From: Caprimulgus europaeus
Taxonomy: Eukaryota > Chordata > Aves > Caprimulgiformes > Caprimulgidae
Direction of reading: 5' to 3'
NCBI GenBank assembly: GCA_907165065.1
Contig: OU015535.1
Location: 186,001 to 250,000 of the forward strand
Length of the DNA stretch: 64,000 nucleotides
Both the position numbers and the translations under genes were made by a program. Positions 63-48,659 of this stretch are shown here, in pieces. How positions within the stretch are numbered: position 1 is the stretch's first letter; every line of letters starts with the position of its first letter. The notes below the pieces were generated by a model that saw nothing but the letters and a program-made list of their open reading frames with translations, was not told where the DNA came from and did no database searches.

Positions 63-1162
63 ACCCCTTTGTGGCCCAATGTGTGGCAGGCTGTGAGCTC
101 TACCCCAACAGGACCTCTCAGGCCTTTGCCTATGTGGGCTACAATGGCCAGGACTTCCTCAGCTTCGACACAAACAATGCCACTTGGCTCCTCTCCCAAG
201 ACACTGACCTGTCAAGGTATGTCCAGGACGTTCTCCGTAACTATACTGCCTTCACCGAGCTGGTGGAAGTCCTCTTTAATGACACCTGTGTTGACGACAT
301 GGAATTGTTACTGCACTATGGGAAGGCAGCTCTGGAGAGACAAGGTGAGACCACCCAGACCCTGGCAGGGCTACCCCAAAGCCCCTCCCACTGGGGCCAA
401 GTGGTGCCCCTCCAGGGATCCCCTCATCCCTTGGCTCTCACCCCCCAGAGCTGCCCGTGGCCACAGTCTTCGCCCGCACGCCCAGCCCAGCCCAGCTCCT
501 GCTGGTTTGTCGCGTCACCGGCTTCTACCCGCGGCCCATCAGTGTGGCCTGGCTGCGGGATGGCCAGGAGGTGCCACCAGGTCCGGCTCTTAACACCAGC
601 ACCATCCTGCCCAACGCCGACCTCACCTACCAGCTCCGCAGCATCCTGGCCGCGGCCCCCCATGACGGGCACAGCTACACCTGCCGCGTGCGCCACCGCA
701 GCCTGGGCACTCGCAGCCTCCTCATCCCATGGGGTAGGTGCCATCCATGGGGACAGGGATGGGGGTCCTCAGCCACCCTACCCCGCAGGATGGAGCAAAG
801 CCAGGAAATCTCATGGCAGCCTCTGATCGTGTTTCTCAGGGAACTCGGAGGCGGTGCTGATCGCAGGGCTCAGTGCTGGGCTGCTGGCAGCCGTAGCCGT
901 GGCTGCCATCATCGCACTTTGGGTGTGGAGATGCAGGTGAGGCTCTTTCTGCCGCGTGAAGCAGCAGTGGGAGAGAAGGAAGGAAATGCCCCAGGAGTTT
1001 GCTGCACTTAGCATTGAAGCTTCTGCTTTGGGGCCGGCTGCTCTCTGCACCCCCATGTCTCTTCCATGGTGTATCCATGAGCCACCCTCCTCTCATTTCA
1101 GAAAGCACCAGCAGATGTTGGAATCAGAGTCCAGGAACTCCATCCTGAGCAAAGAAGCTTAG
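63..1162 (+). CDS. CD1: CD1-A, antigen-presenting CD1 heavy chain, 3' part (alpha2 to tail)
   Basis: Partial gene: coding exons 63-344 (alpha2), 449-733 (alpha3), 840-936 (transmembrane) and 1102-1162 (tail, stop 1160-1162), all with AG/GT borders and consistent phase; 240 residues are visible. The signal peptide and alpha1 exons must lie left of the window. Alpha2 keeps the disulfide pair (Cys in the AGCELYP strand, Cys in NDTC of the helix) and four N-glycosylation sequons (NRTS, NATW, NYTA, NDTC). Alpha3 is a C1-set Ig domain with LLVCRVTGFYP and the YTCRVRH signature, and the CD1-like ILPNAD segment. The membrane segment is rich in Ala, Leu and Val and ends WVWRCR. The 20-residue tail is the longest of the four genes and contains a dileucine-like SIL after acidic ESES; there is no YxxPhi motif. 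CD1 proteins pair with beta2-microglobulin and present lipids at the surface and in endosomes (family knowledge). A non-classical MHC class I gene is the only real alternative. Confidence 0.92.
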
Positions 1163-1719: not shown

Positions 1720-3840
1720 TAAGAACTCGTGCCTTTCCTCAGGATTTGGATGGGCTCGGGGAGGTTTTGACCAGCTGCAAATGGAGCCTGGAGCACCACT
1801 GAATTATTGGTGCTAATTGAAGGGAACACCAAAGCAAAAACAAAAACAACAAAAAAGTGTGTATATACAAACACAAACTTACATATTTCATGGAAATAAG
1901 CAACTGTTCATGGGGAGGTAAAGTGCCCACAAGCCTCCCAATTAAGGATAAAAAGGAAGTCAATCTCCCATCAGAGACAGCAGAGTTCAGACAGGCATAG
2001 GAAGGAATTAAGTTTGTGCTGCCAATCAACCACACACTTGAATGTGCAGCTTCAAAAGGGTTGGTTTCACAGCACAACTTCCTGGCAAAGCTTCACAGGA
2101 AAAGTCTCTGGCAGCTGTGTGTGAGCCAACTATCGGCTGAGTCAGAAGAAAACCTGGCTGGCCTGTGGCCACATCCACCACAACTCTGCCAGGGCTGGTT
2201 CTCCCCTGGCCAAACCCTGTGAACCACAGTGCTGTGGGCAGGACTGAATTTCCCTGACAGTCAGAGTCACCTGCTGGCACCAAAGGGCTCCAGGATCTTG
2301 CTGCAGGAGAAGTGATGCAGAACCCTCACATCCTTTCCTGAGCTAGGACAGACAAATGAAACTTTCAGCTGCAGGCAGGGCTCAGTGGGGCTGGGAGCCC
2401 ACAGCCTCAGCACCTACAAGGCACACGGGGCAATTCGTCTCCCAGAGTGAAGCATGTTGGAGCACTCGACATGGCAAGATGAAGTTTACCCACCAAATCT
2501 GGAGAGCAGATGCAGTTGGTGAGCAAACCTGGTAAGAAAAGGCAGGTGTGTGCATGACATCCTAAGGGCCTCTGCAATAACAAACACCCAGAGCCAAGGA
2601 GGTGTCTGCAAGTGTTTATTCACAGCCCCAAAGAGACTCTACAATAATACATACACACACAGACAGGTTTTTGAGAGGTTTTCAGGCATTTTGACCTAGC
2701 CCACTGGGTGCTCGCGTCTGCATACCCAGTGCAGCACACAGAAGCACTGCAGCCCTGCCCCAACTCATGCAGGCCCAGCTCTGGGCTCGGGGGGATTACA
2801 GCCCTCACCTGAGGGGAGAATGCAAGGACCAATGGTTACCCAAGGGAACTGCAAGGACCAGTGTTACCTGCAGGGTATGGGAAGACTGGGAGAAGTGTGG
2901 ACATCGTGGTGGAATGGCTAAACATCCCCTGGGTGATGCTGAGATGAGCTGCTGGGGAAGTGGGATCATCGGTGCCATTTCTGGGCCTGACAGACCACCA
3001 CAGCATCCCTACTTCTCCATGGGACAGCTCCACGGAAGGGAAGGGGTTCAGTGTTTGAAGGCTACTGGGACACGCCCCCCCCCAAACTTCCCCTTGGCTG
3101 TGATTTCGGTTCTGCCTTCACCCACAGCATGGGGACCCCCAAGAAAGGGGAAGAGAAAATGTGGGGTAAGGAGAGGCACTAGGGAGGAGCAGAGGGTAGG
3201 GGACATTGTGGGGGCAAGGCTGGCTCTGATCACCCCATTGTCCCTCCAGTGCTGGATACTGGTGACAATGGGGACAGAGCAGCATTCCTCTTCCCATGCC
3301 CAGGGGGCATTTGAGGAAGGGGACGGGGTTCCCCAACAAAGATGATGGGAAGGAAAGGGGAGTGCCAGGCTGCAGCTCAGCCCCAGGCCCTCTCCAGGGG
3401 GCATTTATGGGAGAGTTGGAGCACCCCAGCACTGTTCCTGCAGCTGTGGGCTGTGCAGGAGCTGCTCATCGCCTCCTCCTTGGGGAACCCCATCCCCAGG
3501 ATTATGCAGGTGGTGCAGGAAGATCCTGAGCCGGAGGTGTCAGAGGGAGCCCAAAGCAGCCCTTCTCCCCATGTGGGCCTGAAAGGACAGAGGCTGTCTT
3601 TCTCCAGTTGGGGCTAAAACCCAAAAGCCATCATCACCTCCCCTGGAGCTAATGCATCCCACCAGAACAGCGATGGGTGGGGAGAGGCAGTCAGGAGGAT
3701 CCAGCTCAGCTCCTCCAGCATCCGTTTTTCTCTTAGTACCATTTCCTGGGCCTCCTTTTTCCTGCCCTCTCCTCCCAGCTGGGCTCTCCACAGCCCCAGC
3801 CTGTTGGCAATTTATGTTCAAGAGCTTATTTCAGCTGTCC
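1720..3840. other. Intergenic region between CD1-A and CD1-B, no recognised gene
   Basis: About 2.1 kb without a recognisable exon or repeat. Several open frames of 60-190 codons occur on both strands but none has family motifs or a convincing splice pattern. On the minus strand an AATAAA lies near 2618, so an unidentified minus-strand transcript ending there is possible, but nothing else supports it. Confidence 0.5.
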
Positions 3841-4013: not shown

Positions 4014-7000
4014 ATGCAGCATCCTCACCTCTTCCTCTTCCTCTTTGTCCCCCTCCTCCTCCCTGGGATATGGGCAGACCCAGAGGGTAAGTGGAAGCCC
4101 TGGCTCCCCCCCAACCGCTCTCACTCCCCTGTCACTGGACCCCACAGTTCCTCAGGGGAGGCATGGCCAGGCCACCGTCCCCTGCATGGGAAGGATGATT
4201 CCCAGCATCAAAGGGCCACCCCCACCCCCTGCACAGCACCTAAAGGTGTCCTGCCCCTGCCTACCTTCCTTGTTCCTGCCTCCAGCATGGGGCTTCATGC
4301 CCCACTGGCTCCAACACATGGGCTCGAGCACCCAAGCAGAAGTGGGGCCAGGGTGTCCAGCCAGGCCTTGGGTGTTGGGGATCATCCAAAGGTGCCTTCC
4401 TCTTGCAGGAAGCCCCTGGCTGCCAGGGGGGTCTCAGCTCCACCTCCAGCTGTGGGCCCCTTCCAGCACACACTTGTTTGTTGGGGAGCTGCACCTGCAA
4501 GAGGGTGTTTTGAGCTCTGCCGTTGCACAGAGTGTTTCACCGCAGCCCCGCGAGACCTCACGTTTCCGGGGGGGGACAGCAGCAGACTGGAACACGGGAT
4601 TGATCTCTGAGCTGGGCTACTCTCCTGCCCCTGTCAGAGTTTGGTCTCCTTGAGCTCCCAGTGCTCACGAGCCCCCAGACCAGGATGAAATGCGCTTTCC
4701 CCTCCTTCATCCTCCAAGTCCTCTGCACTGTGTGCAGGTCTCTGGCAGAGCCACCTCCTGGCACAGGTGGTTCTCTGAGGGGATATTATTTGGGATTCCC
4801 CAAATAAGCAATGAGGTGCCCCCCACCATCTGCTCCACACAGCCAGACAGCAAGTGCTGGACAGAAGGGAGGCGGGGAGGGGATGAGGTGCCTGAAATGA
4901 CGTATGGGACAGAAATACCTTGCTGAAAGTAAAATAGAGAAGGAAAAAAAGCAGCGGGGGCAGAGGAAGTTCAAACAGGAAAGCAACCCTGAAGGGAGTG
5001 AGGAGGTAGGAGTCCACCAAAGACATGGCTGAGGGGTTTCCCAGGCAGGGCCAGTTGCAGGCTGCTGGAGGTCCCCTTGGTGTGGGGTGAAGAGCATAGA
5101 ATAGTTTGGGTCAGAAAGGACCTTCAAAGGTCATCTAGTCCAACCCTCCAGCAATGAGCAGGGGCATCTTTAACTAGATCAGGTTGCTCAGAGCCCCATC
5201 CAGCCTGATCTTGAATTTTTTTCAGGGATGGGGTTTCTACCACCTCTCTGGGCAACCTCTGCTAGGGTTTCACCAGCCTCATCATAAAAAATTTCTTCCT
5301 TATATCTAGTCTGAATCCCCTGTTTCCTCTCCAGCCCCACACTCATCCGTTTCCTGCAGCCCTTCCTGTCCCCATCCTTTTTCCCAGCAGAGTCACAGGT
5401 TCTTCAGCTGCTCCAGACCAACCTCTTCACCAACATCAGCTCTGCCGAGGTATCCATGGTGGCTTTCCTAGGGGACCTGCCCATCTTTGCGCTGGATCCT
5501 GCCTACTGGAGCATCCACTTCCACTGGCCCTGGGCCCGCCAGGCCACAGACGAGGGTGATGCAAAGACGATCATGTCCCACTACAAAATCTTTCTGCGCA
5601 ATATGGTCCGATACGTGCATGAAATCGCCCAGCGGGCGCAACTGGACTGTGAGTAGGACAACCCCAGCCAGAGCCCCAGTCCCTTTCCTTGGGTTCCAGC
5701 TGAGGTGGCATTTGTGGGGGTCTCATAGGGTACAACAACTCCTGAAAGGGTCCTGGGAAATGCTGCAGCTGACAGGGCACATGGTGAGCAGAGGCAGGGA
5801 GGGCAGCACACCAAAAACACCCCTCAGGGCTCCTGCCATCAGGCACGGAGGAACCCCTCTGCACATCGAGAAGCTGCCACCAAATTTACTGGAGCTGCAG
5901 GAGCTGCATGGCACAGATTACAGAAAGAGAAATTTGGGGGCAAATACTATGGGTGACAACATTCTGATTCAGCAACCAGTCTGCGCAAACTGGCTCCGTA
6001 TCCATGCCAGCCTTCCAAGGGGACTGAGGGCTTGCAGGGTGTCCTGGAGCTTCCTGAAGCTTGGCCCCATGCCCTGCTGCCCATTGCACCCTGCTGCCCA
6101 TCACACCCCTGCACATGCTTCCAGCCATGTTCCGCCCCATGCCACCCATGTTCAACACACTCATGGGACCTCTCAACTGGCTCTACCCTTGGCAGACCCA
6201 TTGGTGGTCCAGATCCATGCAGGCTGTGTGCTGCACCCCAATAGGACAAGCTGGGGCTTCATGCATGTTGGTGAGGGCGGCAGAGACCTCATATCTTTTG
6301 ATATGGAAAGGCAGCGCTGGGAGCTCCAACAGCAATCCTCGCTGGCAGAGCTAGTCACCAAGACCCTCACAAGCAAGAAGGCCATCACGGGGATCCTGGA
6401 GCACCTCCTCTCCATCTCCTGTCAGAGCCACATCCTCAACCTGTGCAAGTATGGGAGGGCTGAACTGGAGAGACAAGGTGAGACCACCCAGACCCTGGCA
6501 GGGCCACCCCAAAGCCCCCCGCTACTGGGGCCAAGTGGTGCCCCTCCAGGGATCCCCTCATCCCTTGGCTCTCACCCCCCAGAGCTGCCCGTGGCCACAG
6601 TCTTCGCCCGCACGCCCAGCCCAGCCCAGCTCCTGCTGGTTTGTCGCGTCACCGGCTTCTACCCGCGGCCCATCAGTGTGGCCTGGCTGCGGGATGGCCA
6701 GGAGGTGCCACCAGGTCCGGCTCTTAACACCAGCACCATCCTGCCCAACGCCGACCTCACCTACCAGCTCCGCAGCATCCTGGCCGCGGCCCCCCATGAC
6801 GGGCACAGCTACACCTGCCGCGTGCGCCACCGCAGCCTGGGCACTCGCAGCCTCCTCATCCCATGGGGTAGGTGCCACCTGTGGGGATGGGGCGCAGGAC
6901 GCAGGTGAGGGGCATCTCCTGGCCCTGTGAGGGGCAGCTCCTGCTTCCTGCCTCCTGCAAATGGCTGTCCTCTTCTCTCCCTGTTCCAGAAGACCACAGC

Positions 7001-7241
7001 ACAGCTCCAACCATTGGTATTGCCATTACAGTACTGTTCCTCGTGGCTACAGCCTCTGCCGGGGGGTTTTGGTGGTGGAAGCAGAGGTAAGGTCTCCCTC
7101 CCACTGTCTGCTCTCAGGTTTATGGACAGATGCATCGGGCCAGGGGTTGCAGAGCAGCAGATCGGCAGGGGTGAATTCCCCAGCCCTGAGCATGGCTCAC
7201 GCTGGTGCCCCCCTTGCAGGAAAGGTGACGAGGCTACATGA
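4014..7241 (+). CDS. CD1: CD1-B, antigen-presenting CD1 heavy chain, complete
   Basis: Six coding exons: 4014-4086 (leader), 5391-5648 (alpha1), 6196-6477 (alpha2), 6583-6867 (alpha3), 6990-7086 (transmembrane), 7220-7241 (tail); 1017 coding bases, 338 residues. The ATG at 4014 opens a classic leader (MQHPHLFLFLFV, then a Leu run ending PGIWADPE). Alpha1 carries one sequon (NISS). Alpha2 keeps the AGC and SISC cysteines, has sequon NRTS and an extra unpaired Cys in NLCKYG. Alpha3 is the Ig C1 domain with YTCRVRH, identical by eye to that of CD1-A. The membrane segment ends FWWWKQR, followed by a six-residue tail KGDEAT without a tyrosine or dileucine sorting motif. Intron 1 contains a minus-strand CR1 fragment. 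From the alpha2 end rightwards the gene belongs to the 6.9-kb duplicated unit shared with CD1-C. Role as in CD1-A: lipid presentation with beta2-microglobulin. Confidence 0.94.
5095..5335 (-). repeat. CR1 LINE 3' fragment in CD1-B intron 1
   Basis: Minus-strand CR1 3' end: the block starting ATAGAATAGTTTGGGTC, followed by the complement of the usual CR1 tail (AAAGGACCTTCAAAGGTCATC). It is about 240 bases and severely 5'-truncated. It ends about 55 bases before the alpha1 acceptor. Confidence 0.85.
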
Positions 7242-7379
7242 GGGATCCAGGAATTCATCATTTGAGGCCTGGCTGCCTGCCCAGCAATGAGCTTCCTCAC
7301 CGCCAGCTCTCCCTGCTCATCTCATCTCCCATCCCTGGCCCATCAGCACCAACAAGAGTTTGTTCTGGAAAACCACCAC

Positions 7380-7385
7380 ATTAAA
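7380..7385 (+). terminator. Polyadenylation signal of CD1-B (ATTAAA)
   Basis: ATTAAA 139 bases after the CD1-B stop, the only good signal nearby. The same signal is repeated in the duplicated copy behind CD1-C. Confidence 0.6.
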
Positions 7386-7984
7386 CAGCTACAAACTTCT
7401 CCAGCTGCATGTGGCTCTCATCCTCCTTCCCCCTCACAAGGTCCCTCCAGGAAACACTCCAGTGCACTGCTGGGACCCCACAGGGTAACCAGGATGACTC
7501 CCCTTTTTCCTGGACACTAGCTGATCTCCTCTGGCATGTCAGGAGAAGCAATCCCTCTGCCAACATCTCCCACATCTCAGTACCTCCATGGCCACTGTCT
7601 CTCTCTGGCAGAAGGGCAGTGACAACCTGGGGCCAGACCAGCATGGAACCACTGAGCGGGATGGAGGACGGAGCAGGCCACAAATCAGGGACATGGAAGG
7701 ATTTGAGCTTTTTCACTGGGGAGAGAAGGGGAAGGTAGGACCCAAGTGAAATCTCCAATCCCCTGGCACAGAGAGGTGTTTCAAGCAGGTGCGAAGCCAC
7801 TCTGGCTCCAGTGCAGATCTCACCCTCTGTCTGGCATGGTTCTGGGTCAAGATCTCCACTCCTAAACTCCTGCCCCTGCAAAAGCTGGAGGGACGGGGGG
7901 CAGTCACCCTTCCAATATGCCCAACAGCCATGAAAGAGCCATGCTCAGGCTCCAGGAGACTCTGTCTTTGAGCAACATGCCCCC

Positions 7985-9065
7985 AAAAAGGGTGAGTTGA
8001 CTTTGGCTGGCCACTAGACGCCCATCCAGCAGCTCTATCATTCTCCCTCCTCAACTGTACAAGGGGGAGACAATATGACAAAAGGCTTGTGGATCCAGAT
8101 AAGGACAGGGACATCATCAACTACCAGCACAGGCAAAACACACTCATCTTGGAGAGTTTAACTTAATTTCTTGCAAATCAAAATCAGAGTAGAATAATGA
8201 GAATTAAGAACAGACCGAAAAACACCTTCCCCCACCCCTCCCTTCTTGGGCTCAACTTCATTCTTGAATTTTTTACCTCCTCCTCCGAAGTGACACAGCA
8301 GAATGAGGAGTGTGGATTGCCACCAGTTTATAATGCATTGTCTCTGTCACTCCTTCCTCCTCACTCTGCTTCAGCATGGGACCCCACCCACAGGAGACAG
8401 ACCTTCATAAACTTCTCCAGCATGGGTCCTTCCCCTGGGCTGCATGGGCACAAACTGCTCTGTAGTTTCCACACGGGTACTTTCCACAGGGTGCAGTTCT
8501 TCAGGAGCAGTCTGCTCCAGCATGGGCCCCCTGCGGGCTCACAAGTCCTGCTGGCAGACCTGCTTCAGCGTAGGCCCCTCTCCATGGGGTCACAGGTGCT
8601 TCCAGGAGCCTGCTCCAGCACGTGCTCTAAGGGTCACAGCTTCCTTCCATCCACCTGCTCCGACATGGGGCCCTCCATGGTCTGCAGGTGGATATCTGCT
8701 CCACCGCGACCCTGCACCATGGGCTGCACGGCCACTGTCTCTGCTCCGGTGCCTGGAGCATCTCCTCCTCCTCCTCCTCCTCCTTCTCCTTCACTGACTT
8801 CAGCGTCTCCATAGTTGTTTAATCTCACACATTCTCACTTCTCTCTCCCAGCTGCCGTTGCACAGAAGTTTCTACCCCTTCTTAAATGTTATCCCAGAGT
8901 CACTACCAACACTGCTGAGTGGCTCAGCCTCGGCCAGCGGTGAGTCTGTTTTGGAGCTGGCTAGAACTGGCTCTGTTGGACATGGAGGCAGCTTCTGGCA
9001 TCTTCTCACAGAAGCCACCCCTGCAGGCTTCCTGCAGCCAAAACCTTGCCACATGAACTCAATAC
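7985..9065 (-). mobile_element. Solo LTR (ERV), minus orientation, behind CD1-B
   Basis: About 1.08 kb resembling the LTR family also seen at 34858-35821, 21150-21967 and 51275-51837. Shared blocks include CACAGGCAAAACACACTC, the TTAATTTCTTGCAAATC region and the C-rich CACCTTCCCCCACCCC stretch. The borders are approximate and I could not define a target-site duplication. It lies between CD1-B and the CD1-C promoter, about 415 bases before the CD1-C start codon. No internal retroviral genes are present. Confidence 0.7.
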
Positions 9066-9339
9066 TCTCTCCCAGGGGTCTACCGAGTAAATCCCTGGGT
9101 GTTACCATGGCAGGAGGTGAAGGCCATCACGGGCCAGTTCAGCCTACATCTCCTTGAGTGCCAGGGTGCTGCTGCAGCCTGGAGGGATGTCCCCTGCAGC
9201 CAGGGTGGATGACTTCACCCCCACCCAAATTCCCCTGCAATTTGAAGCCACTGCCCAGAGTGCCCCAGCCCAGGCCTCCGCCAGCCACACAACCTCCCCC
9301 TGGGGAACGCACCCGGCCAAGCCCTCCCCAAAACCTCAG

Positions 9340-9479
9340 CACCAGCCTCATTGGCTCCTGGGGCCGCCCCATGACAGCAGCACCACCAGAGCTGCACAGG
9401 CACAGCAACCCTGGGGAGAAGTGTGCAGCCACGGCTCCCGCGGCCCCTTCCTCCTGCTACCCTTGCTGCCGCTGGCACC
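9340..9479 (+). promoter_or_regulatory. Putative CD1-C promoter with inverted CCAAT box
   Basis: ATTGG at 9350-9354, 126-130 bases before the start codon, in a context shared with the CD1-B promoter (ACCAG then ATTGGC). No TATA box is seen. Function is inferred. Confidence 0.45.
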
Positions 9480-12400
9480 ATGCAGGCCCCTCGCCTCCTC
9501 CTTCTCTTCCTTCTTCTCGTCCTTCCTGGGATGTGGGCAGATCCAGAGGGTAAGTGGGAGCCCTGGCTCACCTCCACCTGCTCCTATCCCTGCACTGCAG
9601 GACCCCACATATGTGGCAGGGGCTGGGCACAGATTGGCCACTGTCTGCATCACCAAGGGGCCACCCCCCACCCTACAACACCCAAAGGTGTCCCATCCCT
9701 GTCCACCTGCTCAAGGTTCCCTGTCCCACACCATCTTGCCCACTGGCGCTGGGGTTCAGGCACCTGAGCAGGCATTGGGTCCCTCAGACAGGCCTGGGGT
9801 GCCCCCAAAGGCACCTTCCTGCTCCAGGGAGCCTGCAGGCAGCAGGGCTTCTCAGACCCTCCAGGCACAACAGCCCTGCACTGGGTTCCAACACCCTGAG
9901 CAGGTCCTGGGCTCCACCCTCAGCTTGTGGGATCTTTTCTCTTGCAATTGAAGGGTCTCTGGGTCCTCTGCTTTCTCCCTCTGTGAAACAACAAAGCTCG
10001 AAGTTTCCCCCTGTGGGTACAACGAGCTTTCACCTCCATTCCCAGTCTGTGTTTCCCATTCTGGGGCAGGCACTTGCTGCACCCTGGCCAGAGGGGCACT
10101 CACTGCTCCAAAACAACCTTCTCTCTGCCCTGCTTTCTACTGGAGTCTCATTTAGCTCTGCAGGATCAAACTGTCTCCTGCTTCCTGCCAGCATTTGGTT
10201 TTGAGCACTGCCCAAGACACTCTGAACTGGGGTGAAATGCCTCTCGCTCGCAGCTGCCCCAGCTCCTGCACTGGATGCGGATCTGGGTCCTGGCATGGGT
10301 GCTCCTTGATGAGGGAAACATCATCCCAAACCAGCACCAGGGTTCCCCTGCCATCCCTTCCCCGTGGTTAAGTGACAGCTTCCAGAAGGTCTCACTGGGG
10401 CAGTGGATGGCTAAAAGAAGGGAATTAGAGAAGCAGGGAGAGGCTCAGAGAGGCCACGGAAGGAAACTGCAAACTGAGTGAAACCAGGGGATTTCCCCCT
10501 CCCTGCCTGTCTGCCCCATCTCGCCCTGCCTGTCCCCAGGGACACTGCAAGCCACCCTTCCTCCTGAGGCTGCCCACCAGCACTGGAGCCTGCAGTCCCC
10601 TGACCTCCTTCATCCTCATGTACTCCAATGCAGTTTCCTTTCCCCCCTTGCCCCACAGGCTCTTCTCATAAACTTCACATTTTCATAACTGTCATCTTCC
10701 ACAACACCACCCTTGTGGACATTTCAGCCTGGGCCACCCTGGAGGACATCACTTTTGCTACCGTGCAGAAATACACCTGGAACATCTTATACCTCCACCC
10801 ATGGGTCTACCAGGCTCTGCCTGCAGCAGAGTGGGAGAACCTGCAAAACCTGTTCAGGATCTACGTGCACAACTTCATCCTGTCCCTGAACAATGATGCC
10901 AGGCTGTACCAGACACCTTGTAAGTACCAGATGCTGAGCACCCCCTCACCCAAGGCAGGGAGCTGTGAGAAGGAGCTCAGACCCACCACCACCAGCTTAC
11001 CCAAACCAGGGCTGGCAGGAAGGCAGGGAATAGACCTCATCATGCACCAGCAAGACCCCTAAAAGTATCCTGTCCTGTGCAGAGGTCACACGGGGCCATC
11101 CTGGTCCCCAGCACAAACTTTGGTTGCGTTTAGCTCCACTTACACCCTAACACCAGCCCCCCTACTGCTCTCTGGGAACCCCAGATCCCACCAGAGAAGA
11201 CATCTGAGAAAATGGAGATCAAAGGGGTCTCTCTGCTCATGTCTGTAGGACACACAGAGCAAGTGCCTGGCCCCAGACACTGGTGCAGTGCCAGTTAACC
11301 AAGGGCAGAGCACTGGGCTGAGTGCCACCATCCTCCTCCTCATACCCCACGTCCTGTTACTCACCCAAAGCAGTGCTTCCTGCTTTGCCATGACTCCCAA
11401 CCCTGCTGTGGGCAGGGATAGCTCAAGGACAACAAGCTACAGGGCTCAGGACAGGTTTCTCACCTGCAGAGTTTCCACCAGGTATAAAGCAGAGCAGTGA
11501 CATGGGGGGGAAAGGGGGAAGGGGAAGGAAAGGGGAAGGGGTAGGGGAAGAAGGAAAGAAAAAGTTGGAAGGGATCTACAACAATTATCTAGTCCAACTG
11601 CCTGACCACTTCAGGGCTAACCAAAAGCTAAAGCAAATTAAGGGCATTGTCCAAGTGCCTCTTAAACACTGACAGGCTTGGGGTGTTGGCCACACCTGTA
11701 AATAAAAGCTTCCTAATGTCAAGTCTCAGTCTGCCCTGAGCGAGCTTTGAACCATTCCCACATGTCCCATCACTGTATCCCAAGGAGATCAGCACCTCCC
11801 TCTCCATGTCCCTGCCTCAGGAAGCTGTAGAGAGAGGTCGCCCTGCAGCCTCATTTTCTCTAAATTACACAAGCCCAGAGTCCTCAGCCACTCCTCGCAG
11901 GACACACCTTCCAGCCCCTTCAGCTCTGTTGCCCTTCTCTGGACACATTCTAGTACCTTCACATCCTTCTCAAATTGTGGGGCCCAGAACTCGAGGTGAG
12001 GCCACACCAATGCTGAATACAGTGGGATAATCCCTGCCTTTGACCAGCTGGTCATGCTGTGTTTGATGCACCTCAGGATGAAGTTTGCGCTCTTGGCTAC
12101 TATGGCACGCTGCTGGCTCCCACTGAGCCTGCTGCTGACCAGTACCCCCAGGTCTTTTTCTGCAGAGCTGCTTTCCAGCTGCTCCTATCCCAGTTCATAT
12201 TTGTGTCCAGTGTTACTCCATCCCAGGTGCAGAATCTGGCATTTGTTCTTGTTAAATTTCATGCCATTGATGATTGCCCAATGCTCCAATCTATCCAGAT
12301 CCCTCTGCAAGGCCCCTTGTCCCTCAGCAGAGTCAACAGTTTTTTATCATCAGCAAACTTGCCAATGGTGCATTCAACTCCTGCATCCAGATCATAAAAA

Positions 12401-14139
12401 TATTGTAGAGCCCTAGGACTGAGCCCTGAAGAACACCACTGGTGACTGGTCGCCAGCCAGATGTAGCCCATTCACTGCAGCCCTTTGAGCCCTGCCATCT
12501 AGGCAGTTCTCCATCCAGCACACCACGAACCTGCTCACCTCGCAGCTGGACAGCTGGTTCAGAAGGACGCTGTGAGCGACAGTACCAAAAGCCTTACTAA
12601 AAGCCAGAAAAACTACATCCATTTCCTTCCCTTCACCTCCCGGACTTGTGAATGTTCAGCTGATACAGCTGGTCCCTGACAACTTCAGTGTCCACAAATG
12701 GAAAGTCATTGTTACCACACTCACGGTCCCCCAGCTCAGAGGACTGGGCACCCCAGGGTCTACCAGTATTACTAAAGACTGAGGCAAAAAAAGTATTGAA
12801 TGCCTCCTCTTTTTCTTCATCCCTATTAGTCAGGTGATCATGTTCAACAGGTATTGGTCCAATGTTTTCTTCAGACCTCTTCTTGCTATGAATGTACTTC
12901 AAAGAGCCTTTCTTGTTGTCAGACACAACGCTGGCTAGTTTCAACTCTGATGAGCTTTGACTTTTTGTGTCCTTCCTGAGGGGAATGACTTGGGGTGCAG
13001 AGGGAGGGGAGGAAGGGCTGTGCCCAGAGAAGCGGGTGCCAGGCTGCAGTTTCGTGCTCCAGCTCAGGCTGCACTCATGATGCCCATCAACCCCCCTAGA
13101 CCCCTTTGTGTTACAGGCCGCAACCGGCTGCGACTTATATCCCAATGGCTCCTATACGAAATTCTATCACCTCGCCTACAACGCCCATGACTTCCTCAGC
13201 TTCAACGTGGACAACATCCAGTGGGAGAGGCAACAGGAGAGTGAACAGGCGGTGCGACTTCAGAAGCAGTTCAACACCGGCTTCTCTGCAATCCTGCAGC
13301 ACCTTCTTAATATCACCTGTGTTGACCACATGAAGAAATTCATTGAGTACGGAAAGGCAGCTCTGGAGAGACAAGGTGAGACCACCCAGACCCTGGCAGG
13401 GCCACCCCAAAGCCCCCCGCTACTGGGGCCAAGTGGTGCCCCTCCAGGGATCCCCTCATCCCTTGGCTCTCACCCCCCAGAGCTGCCCGTGGCCACAGTC
13501 TTCGCCCGCACGCCCAGCCCAGCCCAGCTCCTGCTGGTTTGTCGCGTCACCGGCTTCTACCCGCGGCCCATCAGTGTGGCCTGGCTGCGGGATGGCCAGG
13601 AGGTGCCACCAGGTCCGGCTCTTAACACCAGCACCATCCTGCCCAACGCCGACCTCACCTACCAGCTCCGCAGCATCCTGGCCGCGGCCCCCCATGACGG
13701 GCACAGCTACGCCTGCCGCGTGCGCCACCGCAGCCTGGGCACTCGCAGCCTCCTCATCCCATGGGGTAGGTGCCACCTGTGGGGATGGGGCGCAGGACGC
13801 AGGTGAGGGGCATCTCCTGGCCCTGTGAGGGGCAGCTCCTGCTTCCTGCCTCCTGCAAATGGCTGTCCTCTTCTCTCCCTGTTCCAGAAGACCACAGCAC
13901 AGCTCCAACCATTGGTATTGCCATTACAGTACTGTTCCTCGTGGCTACAGCCTCTGCCGGGGGGTTTTGGTGGTGGAAGCAGAGGTAAGGTCTCCCTCCC
14001 ACTGTCTGCTCTCAGGTTTATGGACAGATGCATCGGGCCAGGGGTTGCAGAGCAGCAGATCGGCAGGGGTGAATTCCCCAGCCCTGAGCATGGCTCACGC
14101 TGGTGCCCCCCTTGCAGGAAAGGTGACGAGGCTACATGA
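9480..14139 (+). CDS. CD1: CD1-C, hybrid CD1 heavy chain (CD1-D groove, CD1-B membrane and tail)
   Basis: Exons 9480-9549 (leader), 10659-10919 (alpha1), 13100-13375 (alpha2), 13481-13765 (alpha3), 13888-13984 (transmembrane), 14118-14139 (tail); 1011 coding bases, 336 residues. Leader MQAPRLLLLFLLLVLPG is clear. Alpha1 has sequon NTTL; alpha2 has NGSY and NITC and the usual two cysteines (ATGCDLY, NITC). Alpha2 is two residues shorter than in CD1-D (6 bases missing after 13278), in the helix. Alpha3 ends YACRVRH (Ala where CD1-A and CD1-B have Thr). Membrane segment (ends WWWKQR) and tail KGDEAT equal those of CD1-B. The leader-to-alpha2 part matches CD1-D and the alpha3-to-tail part matches CD1-B, so the gene arose by unequal crossover. 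Intron 2 is long (2.2 kb) because of a CR1 insertion. All splice sites are intact, so it is probably expressed. Confidence 0.94.
11498..11562. repeat. Polypurine (G-rich) tract
   Basis: About 65 bases of G and A only apart from single T bases (GGGGGGGAAAGGGGGAAGG and so on), directly beside the 3' end of the intronic minus-strand CR1. An identical tract is at 18396-18460 in CD1-D. Confidence 0.85.
11555..12965 (-). repeat. CR1 LINE (RT to 3' end) in CD1-C intron 2
   Basis: Minus-strand CR1 of about 1.4 kb. Minus-frame pieces show CR1 reverse transcriptase and C-terminal features: DVVFLAFSKAFGTVAHS (from the YLDFSKAFDTV block), the VTSGVLQGSVLGL block, and PLYSALVWPHLEFWAP. Frameshifts and stops break the frame, so it is a dead copy. 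An identical copy lies in CD1-D intron 2. Confidence 0.9.
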
Positions 14140-14277
14140 GGGATCCAGGAATTCATCATTTGAGGCCTGGCTGCCTGCCCAGCAATGAGCTTCCTCACCG
14201 CCAGCTCTCCCTGCTCATCTCATCTCCCATCCCTGGCCCATCAGCACCAACAAGAGTTTGTTCTGGAAAACCACCAC

Positions 14278-14283
14278 ATTAAA
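14278..14283 (+). terminator. Polyadenylation signal of CD1-C (ATTAAA)
   Basis: Exact duplicate of the CD1-B signal, 139 bases after the CD1-C stop. Confidence 0.6.
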
Positions 14284-14882
14284 CAGCTACAAACTTCTCC
14301 AGCTGCATGTGGCTCTCATCCTCCTTCCCCCTCACAAGGTCCCTCCAGGAAACACTCCAGTGCACTGCTGGGACCCCACAGGGTAACCAGGATGACTCCC
14401 CTTTTTCCTGGACACTAGCTGATCTCCTCTGGCATGTCAGGAGAAGCAATCCCTCTGCCAACATCTCCCACATCTCAGTACCTCCATGGCCACTGTCTCT
14501 CTCTGGCAGAAGGGCAGTGACAACCTGGGGCCAGACCAGCATGGAACCACTGAGCGGGATGGAGGACGGAGCAGGCCACAAATCAGGGACATGGAAGGAT
14601 TTGAGCTTTTTCACTGGGGAGAGAAGGGGAAGGTAGGACCCAAGTGAAATCTCCAATCCCCTGGCACAGAGAGGTGTTTCAAGCAGGTGCGAAGCCACTC
14701 TGGCTCCAGTGCAGATCTCACCCTCTGTCTGGCATGGTTCTGGGTCAAGATCTCCACTCCTAAACTCCTGCCCCTGCAAAAGCTGGAGGGACGGGGGGCA
14801 GTCACCCTTCCAATATGCCCAACAGCCATGAAAGAGCCATGCTCAGGCTCCAGGAGACTCTGTCTTTGAGCAACATGCCCCC

Positions 14883-15963
14883 AAAAAGGGTGAGTTGACT
14901 TTGGCTGGCCACTAGACGCCCATCCAGCAGCTCTATCATTCTCCCTCCTCAACTGTACAAGGGGGAGACAATATGACAAAAGGCTTGTGGATCCAGATAA
15001 GGACAGGGACATCATCAACTACCAGCACAGGCAAAACACACTCATCTTGGAGAGTTTAACTTAATTTCTTGCAAATCAAAATCAGAGTAGAATAATGAGA
15101 ATTAAGAACAGACCGAAAAACACCTTCCCCCACCCCTCCCTTCTTGGGCTCAACTTCATTCTTGAATTTTTTACCTCCTCCTCCGAAGTGACACAGCAGA
15201 ATGAGGAGTGTGGATTGCCACCAGTTTATAATGCATTGTCTCTGTCACTCCTTCCTCCTCACTCTGCTTCAGCATGGGACCCCACCCACAGGAGACAGAC
15301 CTTCATAAACTTCTCCAGCATGGGTCCTTCCCATGGGCTGCATGGGCACAAAATGCTCTGTAGTTTCCACACGGGTACTTTCCACAGGGTGCAGTTCTTC
15401 AGGAGCAGTCTGCTCCAGCATGGGCCCCCTGCGGGCTCACAAGTCCTGCTGGCAGACCTGCTTCAGCGTAGGCCCCTCTCCATGGGGTCACAGGTGCTTC
15501 CAGGAGCCTGCTCCAGCACGTGCTCTAAGGGTCACAGCTTCCTTCCATCCACCTGCTCCGACATGGGGCCCTCCATGGTCTGCAGGTGGATATCTGCTCC
15601 ACCGCGACCCTGCACCATGGGCTGCACGGCCACTGTCTCTGCTCCGGTGCCTGGAGCATCTCCTCCTCCTCCTCCTCCTCCTTCTCCTTCACTGACTTCA
15701 GCGTCTCCATAGTTGTTTAATCTCACACATTCTCACTTCTCTCTCCCAGCTGCCGTTGCACAGAAGTTTCTACCCCTTCTTAAATGTTATCCCAGAGTCA
15801 CTACCAACACTGCTGAGTGGCTCAGCCTCGGCCAGCGGTGAGTCTGTTTTGGAGCTGGCTAGAACTGGCTCTGTTGGACATGGAGGCAGCTTCTGGCATC
15901 TTCTCACAGAAGCCACCCCTGCAGGCTTCCTGCAGCCAAAACCTTGCCACATGAACTCAATAC
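14883..15963 (-). mobile_element. Solo LTR (ERV), duplicate copy behind CD1-C
   Basis: Copy of the LTR at 7985-9065, carried along by the tandem duplication rather than by a new insertion. Two substitutions (15333, 15353) separate the copies. It ends about 415 bases before the CD1-D start codon. Confidence 0.7.
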
Positions 15964-16237
15964 TCTCTCCCAGGGGTCTACCGAGTAAATCCCTGGGTGT
16001 TACCATGGCAGGAGGTGAAGGCCATCACGGGCCAGTTCAGCCTACATCTCCTTGAGTGCCAGGGTGCTGCTGCAGCCTGGAGGGATGTCCCCTGCAGCCA
16101 GGGTGGATGACTTCACCCCCACCCAAATTCCCCTGCAATTTGAAGCCACTGCCCAGAGTGCCCCAGCCCAGGCCTCCGCCAGCCACACAACCTCCCCCTG
16201 GGGAACGCACCCGGCCAAGCCCTCCCCAAAACCTCAG

Positions 16238-16377
16238 CACCAGCCTCATTGGCTCCTGGGGCCGCCCCATGACAGCAGCACCACCAGAGCTGCACAGGCA
16301 CAGCAACCCTGGGGAGAAGTGTGCAGCCACGGCTCCCGCGGCCCCTTCCTCCTGCTACCCTTGCTGCCGCTGGCACC
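16238..16377 (+). promoter_or_regulatory. Putative CD1-D promoter with inverted CCAAT box
   Basis: ATTGG at 16248-16252, duplicate of the CD1-C promoter block. Because the whole upstream region is duplicated, CD1-C and CD1-D should respond to the same signals unless downstream elements differ (inference). Confidence 0.45.
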
Positions 16378-19300
16378 ATGCAGGCTCCTCGCCTCCTCCT
16401 TCTCTTCCTTCTTCTCGTCCTTCCTGGGATGTGGGCAGATCCAGAGGGTAAGTGGGAGCCCTGGCTCACCTCCACCTGCTCCTATCCCTGCACTGCAGGA
16501 CCCCACATATGTGGCAGGGGCTGGGCACAGATTGGCCACTGTCTGCATCACCAAGGGGCCACCCCCCACCCTACAACACCCAAAGGTGTCCCATCCCTGT
16601 CCACCTGCTCAAGGTTCCCTGTCCCACACCATCTTGCCCACTGGCGCTGGGGTTCAGGCACCTGAGCAGGCATTGGGTCCCTCAGACAGGCCTGGGGTGC
16701 CCCCAAAGGCACCTTCCTGCTCCAGGGAGCCTGCAGGCAGCAGGGCTTCTCAGACCCTCCAGGCACAACAGCCCTGCACTGGGTTCCAACACCCTGAGCA
16801 GGTCCTGGGCTCCACCCTCAGCTTGTGGGATCTTTTCTCTTGCAATTGAAGGGTCTCTGGGTCCTCTGCTTTCTCCCTCTGTGAAACAACAAAGCTCGAA
16901 GTTTCCCCCTGTGGGTACAACGAGCTTTCACCTCCATTCCCAGTCTGTGTTTCCCATTCTGGGGCAGGCACTTGCTGCACCCTGGCCAGAGGGGCACTCA
17001 CTGCTCCAAAACAACCTTCTCTCTGCCCTGCTTTCTACTGGAGTCTCATTTAGCTCTGCAGGATCAAACTGTCTCCTGCTTCCTGCCAGCATTTGGTTTT
17101 GAGCACTGCCCAAGACACTCTGAACTGGGGTGAAATGCCTCTCGCTCGCAGCTGCCCCAGCTCCTGCACTGGATGCGGATCTGGGTCCTGGCATGGGTGC
17201 TCCTTGATGAGGGAAACATCATCCCAAACCAGCACCAGGGTTCCCCTGCCATCCCTTCCCCGTGGTTAAGTGACAGCTTCCAGAAGGTCTCACTGGGGCA
17301 GTGGATGGCTAAAAGAAGGGAATTAGAGAAGCAGGGAGAGGCTCAGAGAGGCCACGGAAGGAAACTGCAAACTGAGTGAAACCAGGGGATTTCCCCCTCC
17401 CTGCCTGTCTGCCCCATCTCGCCCTGCCTGTCCCCAGGGACACTGCAAGCCACCCTTCCTCCTGAGGCTGCCCACCAGCACTGGAGCCTGCAGTCCCCTG
17501 ACCTCCTTCATCCTCATGTACTCCAATGCAGTTTCCTTTCCCCCCTTGCCCCACAGGCTCTTCTCATAAACTTCACATTTTCATAACTGTCATCTTCCAC
17601 AACACCACCCTTGTGGACATTTCAGCCTGGGCCACCCTGGAGGACATCACTTTTGCTACCGTGCAGAAATACACCTGGAACATCTTATACCTCCACCCAT
17701 GGGTCTACCAGGCTCTGCCTGCAGCAGAGTGGGAGAACCTGCAAAACCTGTTCAGGATCTACGTGCACAACTTCATCCTGTCCCTGAACAATGATGCCAG
17801 GCTGTACCAGACACCTTGTAAGTACCAGATGCTGAGCACCCCCTCACCCAAGGCAGGGAGCTGTGAGAAGGAGCTCAGACCCACCACCACCAGCTTACCC
17901 AAACCAGGGCTGGCAGGAAGGCAGGGAATAGACCTCATCATGCACCAGCAAGACCCCTAAAAGTATCCTGTCCTGTGCAGAGGTCACACGGGGCCATCCT
18001 GGTCCCCAGCACAAACTTTGGTTGCGTTTAGCTCCACTTACACCCTAACACCAGCCCCCCTACTGCTCTCTGGGAACCCCAGATCCCACCAGAGAAGACA
18101 TCTGAGAAAATGGAGATCAAAGGGGTCTCTCTGCTCATGTCTGTAGGACACACAGAGCAAGTGCCTGGCCCCAGACACTGGTGCAGTGCCAGTTAACCAA
18201 GGGCAGAGCACTGGGCTGAGTGCCACCATCCTCCTCCTCATACCCCACGTCCTGTTACTCACCCAAAGCAGTGCTTCCTGCTTTGCCATGACTCCCAACC
18301 CTGCTGTGGGCAGGGATAGCTCAAGGACAACAAGCTACAGGGCTCAGGACAGGTTTCTCACCTGCAGAGTTTCCACCAGGTATAAAGCAGAGCAGTGACA
18401 TGGGGGGGAAAGGGGGAAGGGGAAGGAAAGGGGAAGGGGTAGGGGAAGAAGGAAAGAAAAAGTTGGAAGGGATCTACAACAATTATCTAGTCCAACTGCC
18501 TGACCACTTCAGGGCTAACCAAAAGCTAAAGCAAATTAAGGGCATTGTCCAAGTGCCTCTTAAACACTGACAGGCTTGGGGTGTTGGCCACACCTGTAAA
18601 TAAAAGCTTCCTAATGTCAAGTCTCAGTCTGCCCTGAGCGAGCTTTGAACCATTCCCACATGTCCCATCACTGTATCCCAAGGAGATCAGCACCTCCCTC
18701 TCCATGTCCCTGCCTCAGGAAGCTGTAGAGAGAGGTCGCCCTGCAGCCTCATTTTCTCTAAATTACACAAGCCCAGAGTCCTCAGCCACTCCTCGCAGGA
18801 CACACCTTCCAGCCCCTTCAGCTCTGTTGCCCTTCTCTGGACACATTCTAGTACCTTCACATCCTTCTCAAATTGTGGGGCCCAGAACTCGAGGTGAGGC
18901 CACACCAATGCTGAATACAGTGGGATAATCCCTGCCTTTGACCAGCTGGTCATGCTGTGTTTGATGCACCTCAGGATGAAGTTTGCGCTCTTGGCTACTA
19001 TGGCACGCTGCTGGCTCCCACTGAGCCTGCTGCTGACCAGTACCCCCAGGTCTTTTTCTGCAGAGCTGCTTTCCAGCTGCTCCTATCCCAGTTCATATTT
19101 GTGTCCAGTGTTACTCCATCCCAGGTGCAGAATCTGGCATTTGTTCTTGTTAAATTTCATGCCATTGATGATTGCCCAATGCTCCAATCTATCCAGATCC
19201 CTCTGCAAGGCCCCTTGTCCCTCAGCAGAGTCAACAGTTTTTTATCATCAGCAAACTTGCCAATGGTGCATTCAACTCCTGCATCCAGATCATAAAAATA

Positions 19301-21044
19301 TTGTAGAGCCCTAGGACTGAGCCCTGAAGAACACCACTGGTGACTGGTCGCCAGCCAGATGTAGCCCATTCACTGCAGCCCTTTGAGCCCTGCCATCTAG
19401 GCAGTTCTCCATCCAGCACACCACGAACCTGCTCACCTCGCAGCTGGACAGCTGGTTCAGAAGGACGCTGTGAGCGACAGTACCAAAAGCCTTACTAAAA
19501 GCCAGAAAAACTACATCCATTTCCTTCCCTTCACCTCCCGGACTTGTGAATGTTCAGCTGATACAGCTGGTCCCTGACAACTTCAGTGTCCACAAATGGA
19601 AAGTCATTGTTACCACACTCACGGTCCCCCAGCTCAGAGGACTGGGCACCCCAGGGTCTACCAGTATTACTAAAGACTGAGGCAAAAAAAGTATTGAATG
19701 CCTCCTCTTTTTCTTCATCCCTATTAGTCAGGTGATCATGTTCAACAGGTATTGGTCCAATGTTTTCTTCAGACCTCTTCTTGCTATGAATGTACTTCAA
19801 AGAGCCTTTCTTGTTGTCAGACACAACGCTGGCTAGTTTCAACTCTGATGAGCTTTGACTTTTTGTGTCCTTCCTGAGGGGAATGACTTGGGGTGCAGAG
19901 GGAGGGGAGGAAGGGCTGTGCCCAGAGAAGCGGGTGCCAGGCTGCAGTTTCGTGCTCCAGCTCAGGCTGCACTCATGATGCCCATCAACCCCCCTAGACC
20001 CCTTTGTGTTACAGGCCGCAACCGGCTGCGACTTATATCCCAATGGCTCCTATACGAAATTCTATCACCTCGCCTACAACGCCCATGACTTCCTCAGCTT
20101 CAACGTGGACAACATCCAGTGGGAGAGGCAACAGGAGAGTGAACAGGCGGTGCGACTTCAGAAGCAGTTCAACACCTTCACCGGCTTCTCTGCAACCCTG
20201 CAGCACCTTCTTAATATCACCTGTGTTGACCACATGAAGAAATTCATCGAGTACGGAAAGGCAGCTCTGGAGAGACAAGGTGAGACCACCCAGACCCTGG
20301 CAGGGCCACCCCAAAGCCCCCCGCTACTGGGGCCAAGTGGTGCCCCTCCAGGGATCCCCTCATCCCTTGGCTCTCACCCCCCAGAGCTGCCCGTGGCCAC
20401 AGTCTTCGCCCGCACGCCCAGCCCAGCCCAGCTCCTGCTGGTTTGTCGCGTCACCGGCTTCTACCCGCGGCCCATCAGTGTGGCCTGGCTGCGGGATGGC
20501 CAGGAGGTGCCACCAGGTCCGGCTCTTAACACCAGCACCATCCTGCCCAACGCCGACCTCACCTACCAGCTCCGCAGCATCCTGGCCGCGGCCCCCCATG
20601 ACGGGCACAGCTACGCCTGCCGCGTGCGCCACCGCAGCCTGGGCACTCGCAGCCTCCTCATCCCATGGGGTAGGTGCCACCTGTGGGGATGGGGCGCAGG
20701 GTGTGAGCAGAGGCCTCCGGCCTCATGCAGGCGCCTGGAGGATGGTGGGTCAGGCTCCAATGGCTGCTCTGGCCATGTTGTCCTGTGTGCCCACAACTGC
20801 TCTCTTTCCTCTCTCCTCCAGGCAGCTCCAGGGTAGCTCTAAGTTTTGGTATCATCATTGCGGTGCTTCTCACCATGGCTGCAGTCCTTACTGGGACCAT
20901 CTGGTACTATAGGCGCAGGTGAGGTCTCCCTGCCGAGATGCACCAGCCCCATCACCTCCATACCATGGCTGGTGGCACCTGCCTGGCCAGGGCTGCCTGC
21001 CTTTGTCCAGCCTCACTCACCTCCTCTTCTCCTGCAGGAGCTGA
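16378..21044 (+). CDS. CD1: CD1-D, antigen-presenting CD1 heavy chain with minimal tail, complete
   Basis: Exons 16378-16447 (leader), 17557-17817 (alpha1), 19998-20279 (alpha2), 20385-20669 (alpha3), 20822-20918 (transmembrane), 21038-21044 (tail); 1002 coding bases, 333 residues. Leader and alpha1 are the same protein as in CD1-C (the one leader change, 9488/16386, is silent). Alpha2 keeps full length (282 bases) with the extra Phe-Thr in NTFTGF and a Thr for Ile change after it. Alpha3 equals CD1-C. The membrane exon is unique to this gene: a hydrophobic run containing GIIIAVLLTMAAVLTG, then WYYRRR. The last exon adds a single Ser before TGA, so the cytoplasmic part is essentially RRRS, with no YxxPhi or dileucine signal. 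Such tail-less CD1 forms would be expected mainly at the cell surface or early recycling compartments (inference from CD1 trafficking knowledge). Confidence 0.94.
18453..19863 (-). repeat. CR1 LINE in CD1-D intron 2 (duplicate)
   Basis: Same CR1 insertion as at 11555-12965, duplicated with the unit; no difference noted by eye. It shows that the insertion preceded the duplication. Confidence 0.9.
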
Positions 21045-21149: not shown

Positions 21150-21967
21150 ATGCCTCACAGGCAAAACAGACTCAACTTGGGGAAGAAAAATCAAATTAAA
21201 TCATTGCCATTCATCTGAGTACACATAATAACCACATCTTACAACATCTTCCCCCCACCCCTCCCACTTCCCGGGCTCAAATCACTTTGCTCCAACGTCT
21301 CTACCTTACTCCCCCAGCAGCACAGGGGACAGGGAATGGGGGTTCAGTCAGGTCACCTCTGCCACTCTTCCTGGCATGAAAGTCCAGGAACAAGATGTTC
21401 CAGAGCAGCTTCCCATGGAGTCACAGACCTCTTCGGGTTCAGCTCCTGGCTCCAGCATGGGGACATCCATGGGCTGCAGACTCTCCCCCTGCTTGGAGGT
21501 CCACCCCGGCTCGGGGGTTGGGCAACTCTCAGGTCTCAGATCAGTCACACTTGTCTCAGGCTCAACTTCTCTGCTCCACCATGGAGTCCTCCATGCTCTA
21601 TACGTGGGTCTCTGCTCCACCATTGAACCTCCATGGGCTGCAGGGACCTCCTTTGCCTTCTCCTGCTCCATGGGGTTGAACTGAGTGTCTGAGTTTCTCT
21701 GTCCTCCTCCTCCTTCCTGCTGGCACAGAAGCTCTCCCTCTGTTTAGGCCAATGGTCTTCTGTTCAGGTCAACAGCCTCTCCTCCTGGTTCTCTCCACCT
21801 TTTTCTTTTAAAGACAGTTCTTCCCGTCACGAATGTGGATTAGCAGAGGTGTTTCTCTAGGGTTCACTGGCCCAGCCTGGGCTGAGGGGGTCTCTGCCTT
21901 GGAGCCAGGGAGCCCCTTGCTGTCACAAGGTGTTTCCCCCCCCCCCCCCCCCCCCAAACCTAACACA
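21150..21967 (-). mobile_element. LTR (ERV), minus orientation, downstream of CD1-D
   Basis: Reverse-oriented relative of the LTR at 34858-35821. The blocks GCAAAACAGACTCAAC, the ACAACATCTTCCCCCCACCC region, the part complementary to the frame GSCSGTSCSWTFMPGR, and the terminal CCTAACACA match in order. The end that would be the LTR 3' border is missing or diverged. Twenty consecutive C residues (21936-21955) sit near the other border. Confidence 0.75.
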
Positions 21968-22260
21968 GCACCCCAGCCCAGCCTCCCCTGTGTTACCGCA
22001 TGGGCAAGGGGCTCACCCAGGCACTTGCCCTGACACCTCCTCATCCTTCTCCCCACTGTGCCCCCACTCCATCACTGTCCCTTTCCCCCGGCCCCCGTGT
22101 CCTTCTTGCTCCCCACACACGGCCCCAGCCGTGGCGCTGCCCCTTCCTCATCCCAAACTGACTGTCCCCTGTTCCCCTTCCCCAGCCCCACCTGTCCCTC
22201 CTCTGTCCCCACGAGTCCCTTACTCCTCCCCACACGTCCCCGTGCCCCCAGCCTTGGCGC
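21968..22260. other. C-rich unique DNA, no gene seen
   Basis: Cytosine-rich sequence between the LTR and the CpG-rich block. Open frames on both strands are low-complexity Pro/Ser or Gly/Arg strings and are not credible proteins. Confidence 0.5.
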
Positions 22261-22289
22261 GAGGGTGAAAGGGGGTCCCAGTGCCCCCG

Positions 22290-48650: not shown

Positions 48651-48659
48651 TGGTGCCAT

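Follow-up and report, generated by a model that had tools for sequence, protein, structure and literature searches.

A candidate chimeric CD1 gene joined through a near-identical alpha3 segment in the European nightjar

How can one member of a gene cluster carry the ligand groove of its neighbour on one side and the membrane anchor of its neighbour on the other? The CD1 cluster of the European nightjar, Caprimulgus europaeus, raises this question in a stretch of 64,000 nucleotides (the window; positions 186001-250000 of contig OU015535.1, here C12). Four CD1 genes, called A, B, C and D, lie there on the same strand, with exons in the order leader, alpha1, alpha2, alpha3, transmembrane segment (TM) and tail, with GT/AG splice sites and with open frames (Table 1). 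The third of them, CD1-C, appears to combine its neighbours D and B. Judging from the sequence comparisons below, we read it as a real, young chimeric gene that originated by non-allelic recombination through an alpha3 cassette under concerted evolution, and give this reading a probability of roughly three in four.

The 5' part of CD1-C follows D. The two genes are identical in alpha1 and in introns 1 and 2 (100%), 98.6% identical in the leader exon, and 99.3% identical in alpha2, where C has in addition a 6-bp deletion; over the 2,581 bp upstream of the C start codon there are two differences from the corresponding region of D. The 3' part follows B, with 100% identity in the TM, the tail, and introns 4 and 5. 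B and D themselves are only 52.6-56.7% identical in alpha1, alpha2 and TM, and 80% in the leader. These presumptive parents are neighbours on one strand, both are kept beside the hybrid, and the whole segment in between is duplicated. A first-pass annotation of this DNA, made from the letters alone, had proposed a gene with a CD1-D-type leader, alpha1 and alpha2 and a CD1-B-type membrane segment and tail, and this is what the exon comparisons bear out.

Self-BLAST of the window aligned positions 6465-13796 with 13363-20700 as a head-to-tail repeat at 99.836% identity over 7,338 columns, with 6 mismatches and 1 gap (13,479 bits, far above chance). The two units of this repeat adjoin directly and are nearly identical, which supports the recent tandem duplication suggested earlier. 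They differ at positions 6813, 8435, 8455, 9488, 13292 and 13344 and by a 6-bp indel after 13274; the six substitutions and one 6-base indel that had been counted by eye between units of about 6.9 kb were thus exact. A 1,001-base probe from the unit had exactly two matches in the genome, both inside the window. Three of the seven differences fall within 71 bp, for which the chance is about 0.01 under random placement, suggesting that conversion has acted since the duplication.

The breakpoint had been expected in the near-identical stretch formed by the end of alpha2, intron 3 and alpha3, and it is there that a stretch of exactly 434 bp, with a single mismatch, is common to B and D; the bases directly past either edge are different. 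The shared segment consists of 13 bp of the alpha2 exon end, 105 bp of intron 3, the 285-bp alpha3 exon and 31 bp of the next intron; it is 99.8-100% identical among B, C and D, and in gene A it is 98.3% identical over 423 bp. What did not stand was the assignment of the C alpha3 exon to the CD1-B type: the alpha3 exons of C and D differ at 0 of 285 positions, and both are one site off B. At this one alpha3 site that tells B and D apart, C carries the base of D, which places the simplest crossover downstream of 13711 and not beyond 13796.

The origin of CD1-C could then be pictured as follows. In an ancestral order A-B-D on one strand, gene conversion, acting again and again, would have held alpha3 and intron 3 close to identity without evening out the strongly divergent grooves and anchors. 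If two chromosomes then paired out of register, with the alpha3 of B against the alpha3 of D, non-allelic homologous recombination by a crossover at this place (most simply at 13712-13796) would have given the order A-B-C-D, in which C received the 5' region, leader and groove of D, and the TM and tail of B. Crossover is, in this picture, the inferred mechanism. Fused predictions in an ibis and in owls suggest that B precedes D in other birds too.

Table 1. Features of the CD1 cluster (window positions, unless given as C12 positions)
Feature	Position	Strand	Remark
Gene A leader and alpha1	C12:185259-185337 and C12:185648-185905	+	just outside the window; gene A whole = C12:185259-187162, intact
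Gene A, from alpha2 exon	63..1162: 63-344, 449-733, 840-936, 1102-1162	+	groove closest to chicken CD1-1
Gene B	4014..7241: 4014-4086, 5391-5648, 6196-6477, 6583-6867, 6990-7086, 7220-7241 (including stop)	+	groove closest to chicken CD1-2
Gene C (putative chimera), D-type leader, alpha1, alpha2	9480-9549, 10659-10919, 13100-13375	+	gene C spans 9480..14139
Gene C alpha3, then B-type TM and tail (including stop)	13481-13765, 13888-13984, 14118-14139	+	alpha3 identical to that of D
Gene D	16378..21044: 16378-16447, 17557-17817, 19998-20279, 20385-20669, 20822-20918, 21038-21044 (including stop)	+	third isotype by groove scores
Tandem unit 1	6465..13362	+	6,898 bp; B alpha3, TM and tail, intergenic stretch, C leader, alpha1 and alpha2 exons
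Tandem unit 2	13363..20266	+	6,904 bp; C alpha3, TM and tail, intergenic stretch, D leader, alpha1 and alpha2 exons
434-bp homogenised segment in B	6465..6898	+	alpha2 end, intron 3, alpha3, intron 4 start
434-bp homogenised segment in C	13363..13796	+	identical to that of D; inferred crossover most simply 13712-13796
434-bp homogenised segment in D	20267..20700	+	from self-BLAST
Junction of 6-bp in-frame deletion, C alpha2 exon	13274..13275	+	alpha2 shorter by two residues than in D, in three other nightjars and in chicken CD1-1
TGA in B tail exon	7239..7241	+	in-frame remnant GIQEFII follows directly; C has the copy at 14137-14139

Another account of the repeat is a false duplication, in which the assembler would have joined both alleles of a single unit in series via the near-identical alpha3 segment, the true order being A-B-D. 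At the rate of 4.6e-9 per site per generation and the generation time of 2 years that PMC11512156 uses for the European nightjar, the six substitutions between the units (6,898 bp) would date a duplication to about 94,500 generations ago; this is 0.19 million years, with a counting error that spans 0.07-0.41. So small a difference could also be allelic. False duplications are described as common even in purged assemblies (PMC9516828), and 31 haplotypic duplications are reported to have been removed by hand from the European nightjar assembly (PMC8729189). However, most false duplications are described as separated by gaps or accompanied by a depth gap or half depth (PMC9516828), whereas C12:1-280000 contains no N. 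The assembly (1,178 Mb in 121 scaffolds) is reported to derive from long reads, 87-fold PacBio with 62-fold 10X, processed with Falcon-unzip and purge_dups (PMC8729189), and the unit probe found its two copies and no more. Additionally, 434 shared bp would seem a small basis for wrongly overlapping long PacBio reads, and predictions from other birds include groove/anchor pairs resembling that of C. We regard an assembly error as an unlikely cause, and the duplication, judged from the assembled sequence, as probably real.

Several points weigh against a young chimera made by crossover. Six substitutions in 6.9 kb are also what two alleles could show, and a single diagnostic site alone places the crossover; with this one site and the clustered differences, conversion may have blurred the record. 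The chimeric join is known from one nightjar individual, and the D-type proteins of three other nightjars among the matches listed end at alpha3. Since PacBio HiFi reads of a second European nightjar are reported (PMC11512156), the question of copy number can be settled without new sampling.

The assignment of these genes to CD1 comes from several searches. Over C12:1-280000, tblastn found the four CD1 genes and, besides them, a single decayed relic of alpha3. The Pfam family MHC_I_3 scored above its curated cut-off in the alpha2-containing frames of B, C and D, with the lone alpha1 exons below it, and the C1-set alpha3 domain (PF07654) was found in all four genes with E of about 1e-17. The best PDB match of the A, B and D grooves was in each case a chicken CD1, so that they are nearer to CD1 than to classical class I; the A groove was assessed against the PDB only, and the C groove is that of D with three changes. 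CD1-C would be displayed at the cell surface with beta2-microglobulin and would present lipids. Because its upstream region departs from that of D at only the two sites mentioned above, it is probably expressed like D, and its expected role is that of another lipid presenter of the D type, with an alpha2 domain that is slightly shorter.

The grooves sort into three types. That of B scored 178.3 bits with chicken CD1-2 vs. 72.1 with CD1-1, that of A scored 174.8 bits with chicken CD1-1, and that of D, whose best PDB match was also chicken CD1-1, reached 115.1 bits; an A-type protein of a frogmouth gave 158.1 bits with chicken CD1-1. D as the counterpart of chicken CD1-1 was rejected, as A fits better by these scores. 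On this measure bird CD1 has a third isotype, represented by D, besides those of chicken CD1-1, to which A corresponds, and CD1-2, to which B corresponds. Public proteins were taken from three listings, which held the best 120 of 655, 618 and 636 matches, respectively, the first having scored 7,992 candidates only. Assigned by alpha2 score against the window genes, the 247 proteins among the matches listed comprised 47 A-type, 120 B-type and 80 D-type proteins, with a smallest margin of 18 bits. The closest D-type proteins among them were those of the nightjars Nyctiprogne (93%), Chordeiles (91%) and Antrostomus (89%), each over 83% of the query. The D-type matches listed include ducks, geese, kiwi, rhea and emu; no galliform D-type protein was among the matches listed.

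As in the nightjar, the chicken genes CD1.1 and CD1.2 are described as a tandem in one orientation (PMC5002281), and the chicken CD1-1 and CD1-2 proteins differ at 1 of 93 alpha3 residues while their grooves are very different. Unlike the chicken with its two genes, the nightjar has four, D being of the third isotype and C the putative chimera. Two clades of bird CD1 are reported from full-length proteins (PMC5002281); a third isotype and the alpha3 pattern described below would add to the picture given there.

The proposed crossover depends on the near-identity of alpha3, which is seen in all four genes. Between A and B, none of the 285 alpha3 positions differs, and the same is true of C and D; one site divides the two sets, whereas the exons flanking alpha3 are 54-57% alike between A and B. 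Intron 3 in this genome is 100% identical between B and D, and 97.1% between A and either of them. Constraint on the protein as the whole cause of the alpha3 identity was rejected, since the intron is identical in B and D as well. Third-position GC content is 0.85 in all four alpha3 exons vs. 0.66-0.75 in alpha1 and alpha2, and CpG is raised; this is a hint of what biased conversion would give, but the amino-acid make-up may explain it.

For a comparison across birds, 120 public proteins were hand-picked from 237 and combined with A, B and D of the window, C being left out; the sample covers 82 species including the window genes, 32 of them with two or more isotypes, with species typed by hand from the listings. 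In alpha2, proteins of one isotype from different species were 74.3% identical, and proteins of different isotypes 36-38%. For alpha3, on the contrary, different isotypes were on average 97.1% identical within a species (42 pairs) vs. 89.1% between species (4,857 pairs). Among the 71 hand-picked rows having a paralogue of another isotype, the own-species paralogue was closer in alpha3 than the median orthologue in 67, and at least as close as the best orthologue in 62; the four exceptions to the median test were both ruddy duck rows and both hoopoe rows. In alpha2 the paralogue beat the median orthologue in 0 of 71 rows, so that alpha2 always tracks the isotype. We read this pattern as concerted evolution of alpha3 in bird CD1 genes. 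It resembles the concerted evolution by gene conversion described for major histocompatibility complex (MHC) class I and II genes, in which parts of paralogues within a species are closer than those of orthologues (PMC1397804; PMC2907588). In contrast to MHC class I and II, the homogenisation in CD1 is confined, so far as tested, to alpha3 and intron 3, which are flanked by isotype-specific grooves and anchors. Of the open-access papers listed for CD1 in connection with conversion, concerted evolution or gene chimerism, none had a title or abstract opening that dealt with alpha3 homogenisation or chimeric CD1 in birds.

Two observations on the A side of the cluster belong here. The decayed alpha3 relic lies beside A at C12:184541-184660, 1.4 kb upstream of the window; it contains stops, is 74.6% alike over 134 columns, and stands outside the homogenisation common to the four CD1 genes. 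The region upstream of B (window 2888-3433) is 84-89% alike to that upstream of A (C12:183332-184097), which is probably a leftover of the older duplication that made A and B.

Are such recombined genes found in other birds? Anchors could be classified in 144 of the 247 proteins (103 could not), and 134 of these pair a groove and an anchor of one isotype. The other ten among the matches listed are mixed (groove/anchor): five A/B, one B/D, two D/A and two D/B. The D/A proteins are predictions from two barbets, and the D/B proteins come from the hoazin (P0076) and the speckled mousebird (P0059). In addition to these ten, a loon protein joins a D-type alpha1 to an A-type alpha2. Uniqueness of the combination in CD1-C was not supported, as the D-groove/B-anchor pairing is also annotated in hoazin and mousebird, where, as in the nightjar, each such protein stands beside a D/D protein. 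Unlike nightjar C and D, these pairs are far more diverged: the D/B and D/D proteins of one species are 84% identical in the hoazin and 76% in the mousebird overall, with the anchors and a missing exon piece included, and all are predictions given without coordinates. The hoazin record lacks a tail, and the mousebird tail is short.

The mixed proteins may not all reflect genes. If they were products of read-through splicing or of chained annotation, the nightjar case would stand alone, an alternative that we find doubtful, albeit a serious one. The five A/B proteins and the B/D protein are compatible with transcripts spliced from one gene into its downstream neighbour, given the order A-B-D. 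Some mixed proteins are labelled as isoforms, and all are predictions that come without gene coordinates; those of barbets and hoazin are incomplete or short as records. However, four of the ten mixed proteins, those with a D groove and a B or A anchor, run contrary to the order A-B-D and fit duplication by unequal crossover, from which they would be expected. Moreover, the D/B and D/D proteins of hoazin and mousebird differ in the groove too, and thus look like separate genes.

Alternatively, CD1-C itself might be an old gene of many birds, recently overwritten with D sequence by conversion or repeated unequal exchange, so that the chimera would be ancient and only its sequence young. The D/B proteins beside D/D proteins in hoazin and mousebird are in line with such a history, and conversion is clearly active in the CD1 cluster. 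We examined this with a tree of alpha2 (76 rows, 95 columns), from which seven D-type proteins, chiefly alternative isoforms or second records, were left out by hand. The mousebird chimera stood there beside a protein of another mousebird genus and not beside its own D/D partner, but almost without support (92/39). Short as this alignment is, its tree groups proteins by lineage and not by anchor type, with nightjar C and D together (100/95), the hoazin pair together (100/75) and three mousebird rows together (100/99), which argues, weakly, for separate chimera events. Alpha2 residues shared by the hoazin and mousebird chimeras were considered as a sign of one old event and dropped, since they also occur in gull P0008 and courser P0024. 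Against overwriting stands the length of the identity between C and D, which takes in both introns 1 and 2 and the greater part of the 6.9-kb unit and so far exceeds the alpha3 conversion tracts. We consider an ancient chimera improbable, more so than an error of assembly.

A young chimeric origin of CD1-C could be one case of a more general process, in which bird CD1 genes have the alpha3 exon in common as a cassette and as a lasting hub of recombination: conversion would keep it uniform within each species, and crossovers would repeatedly re-pair grooves and anchors, with nightjar, hoazin, mousebird and barbets as separate products. This extension is tentative, and we place it slightly below even odds. 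Alpha3 is the domain that contacts beta2-microglobulin in CD1. If the process is real, bird CD1 genes are modular, and a near-uniform alpha3 lets grooves and anchors be exchanged in single steps. A tree of full-length bird CD1 proteins would then mix species-specific alpha3 with isotype-specific grooves.

As to the tail, the first-pass annotation had taken C to pair a ligand groove with a trafficking signal in a new way. The frame in the tail exons of B and C reads KGDEAT, TGA, GIQEFII, TGA, so that the B-type tail of this genome stops before the remnant GIQEFII. A length rule gave 37 complete tails among 71 proteins with a B-type anchor, the short tail of the mousebird chimera being left out; 34 of the 37 end in an acidic residue, one further residue and two mostly aliphatic ones (e.g. 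WETQEFII). Thus a gain of a trafficking motif in C was rejected: as the B-type tail has lost its conserved ending here, C gains no known endosomal sorting motif. The loss arose in B itself and was then copied into C. The tail of D is YYRRRS, similar to the HYRRRS of several other D-type proteins, and no tyrosine or dileucine motif was recognised in it. In the chicken, the short tail of CD1.2 is described as ending in leucine-isoleucine, an ending called a putative dileucine motif (PMC5002281), in contrast to the nightjar B tail, which is cut short. If bird CD1 genes are modular as proposed above, they would also offer a natural test of whether the anchor alone alters the destination of a lipid-presenting molecule.

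The cluster lies 184-207 kb from the end of C12 (23,520,972 bases), the first 10 kb of which are a 156-bp satellite in 64 copies. Contigs of some 22-26 Mb carry many of the bird CD1 proteins among the matches listed; in the zebra finch, CD1 has been assigned, with doubt, to chromosome 12 (PMC2907588). Within the window, CpG enrichment is strongest just downstream of D, at 21951-22500, where observed/expected reaches 0.76; this stretch is possibly the promoter of another gene. Fragments of reverse transcriptase (PF00078) were found at 26811-27917 and 48511-49152; we take them to be probably CR1-type long interspersed nuclear elements (LINEs). Parts of intron 2 of C and D (11985-12314 and 18883-19212) match 30083-30412 and look similar to the reverse-transcriptase stretches. 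Finally, the window contains two arrays free of N, a CCCCTT array of 470 bp at 36362-36831 and a perfect 8-bp repeat of 11 copies at 42270-42357.

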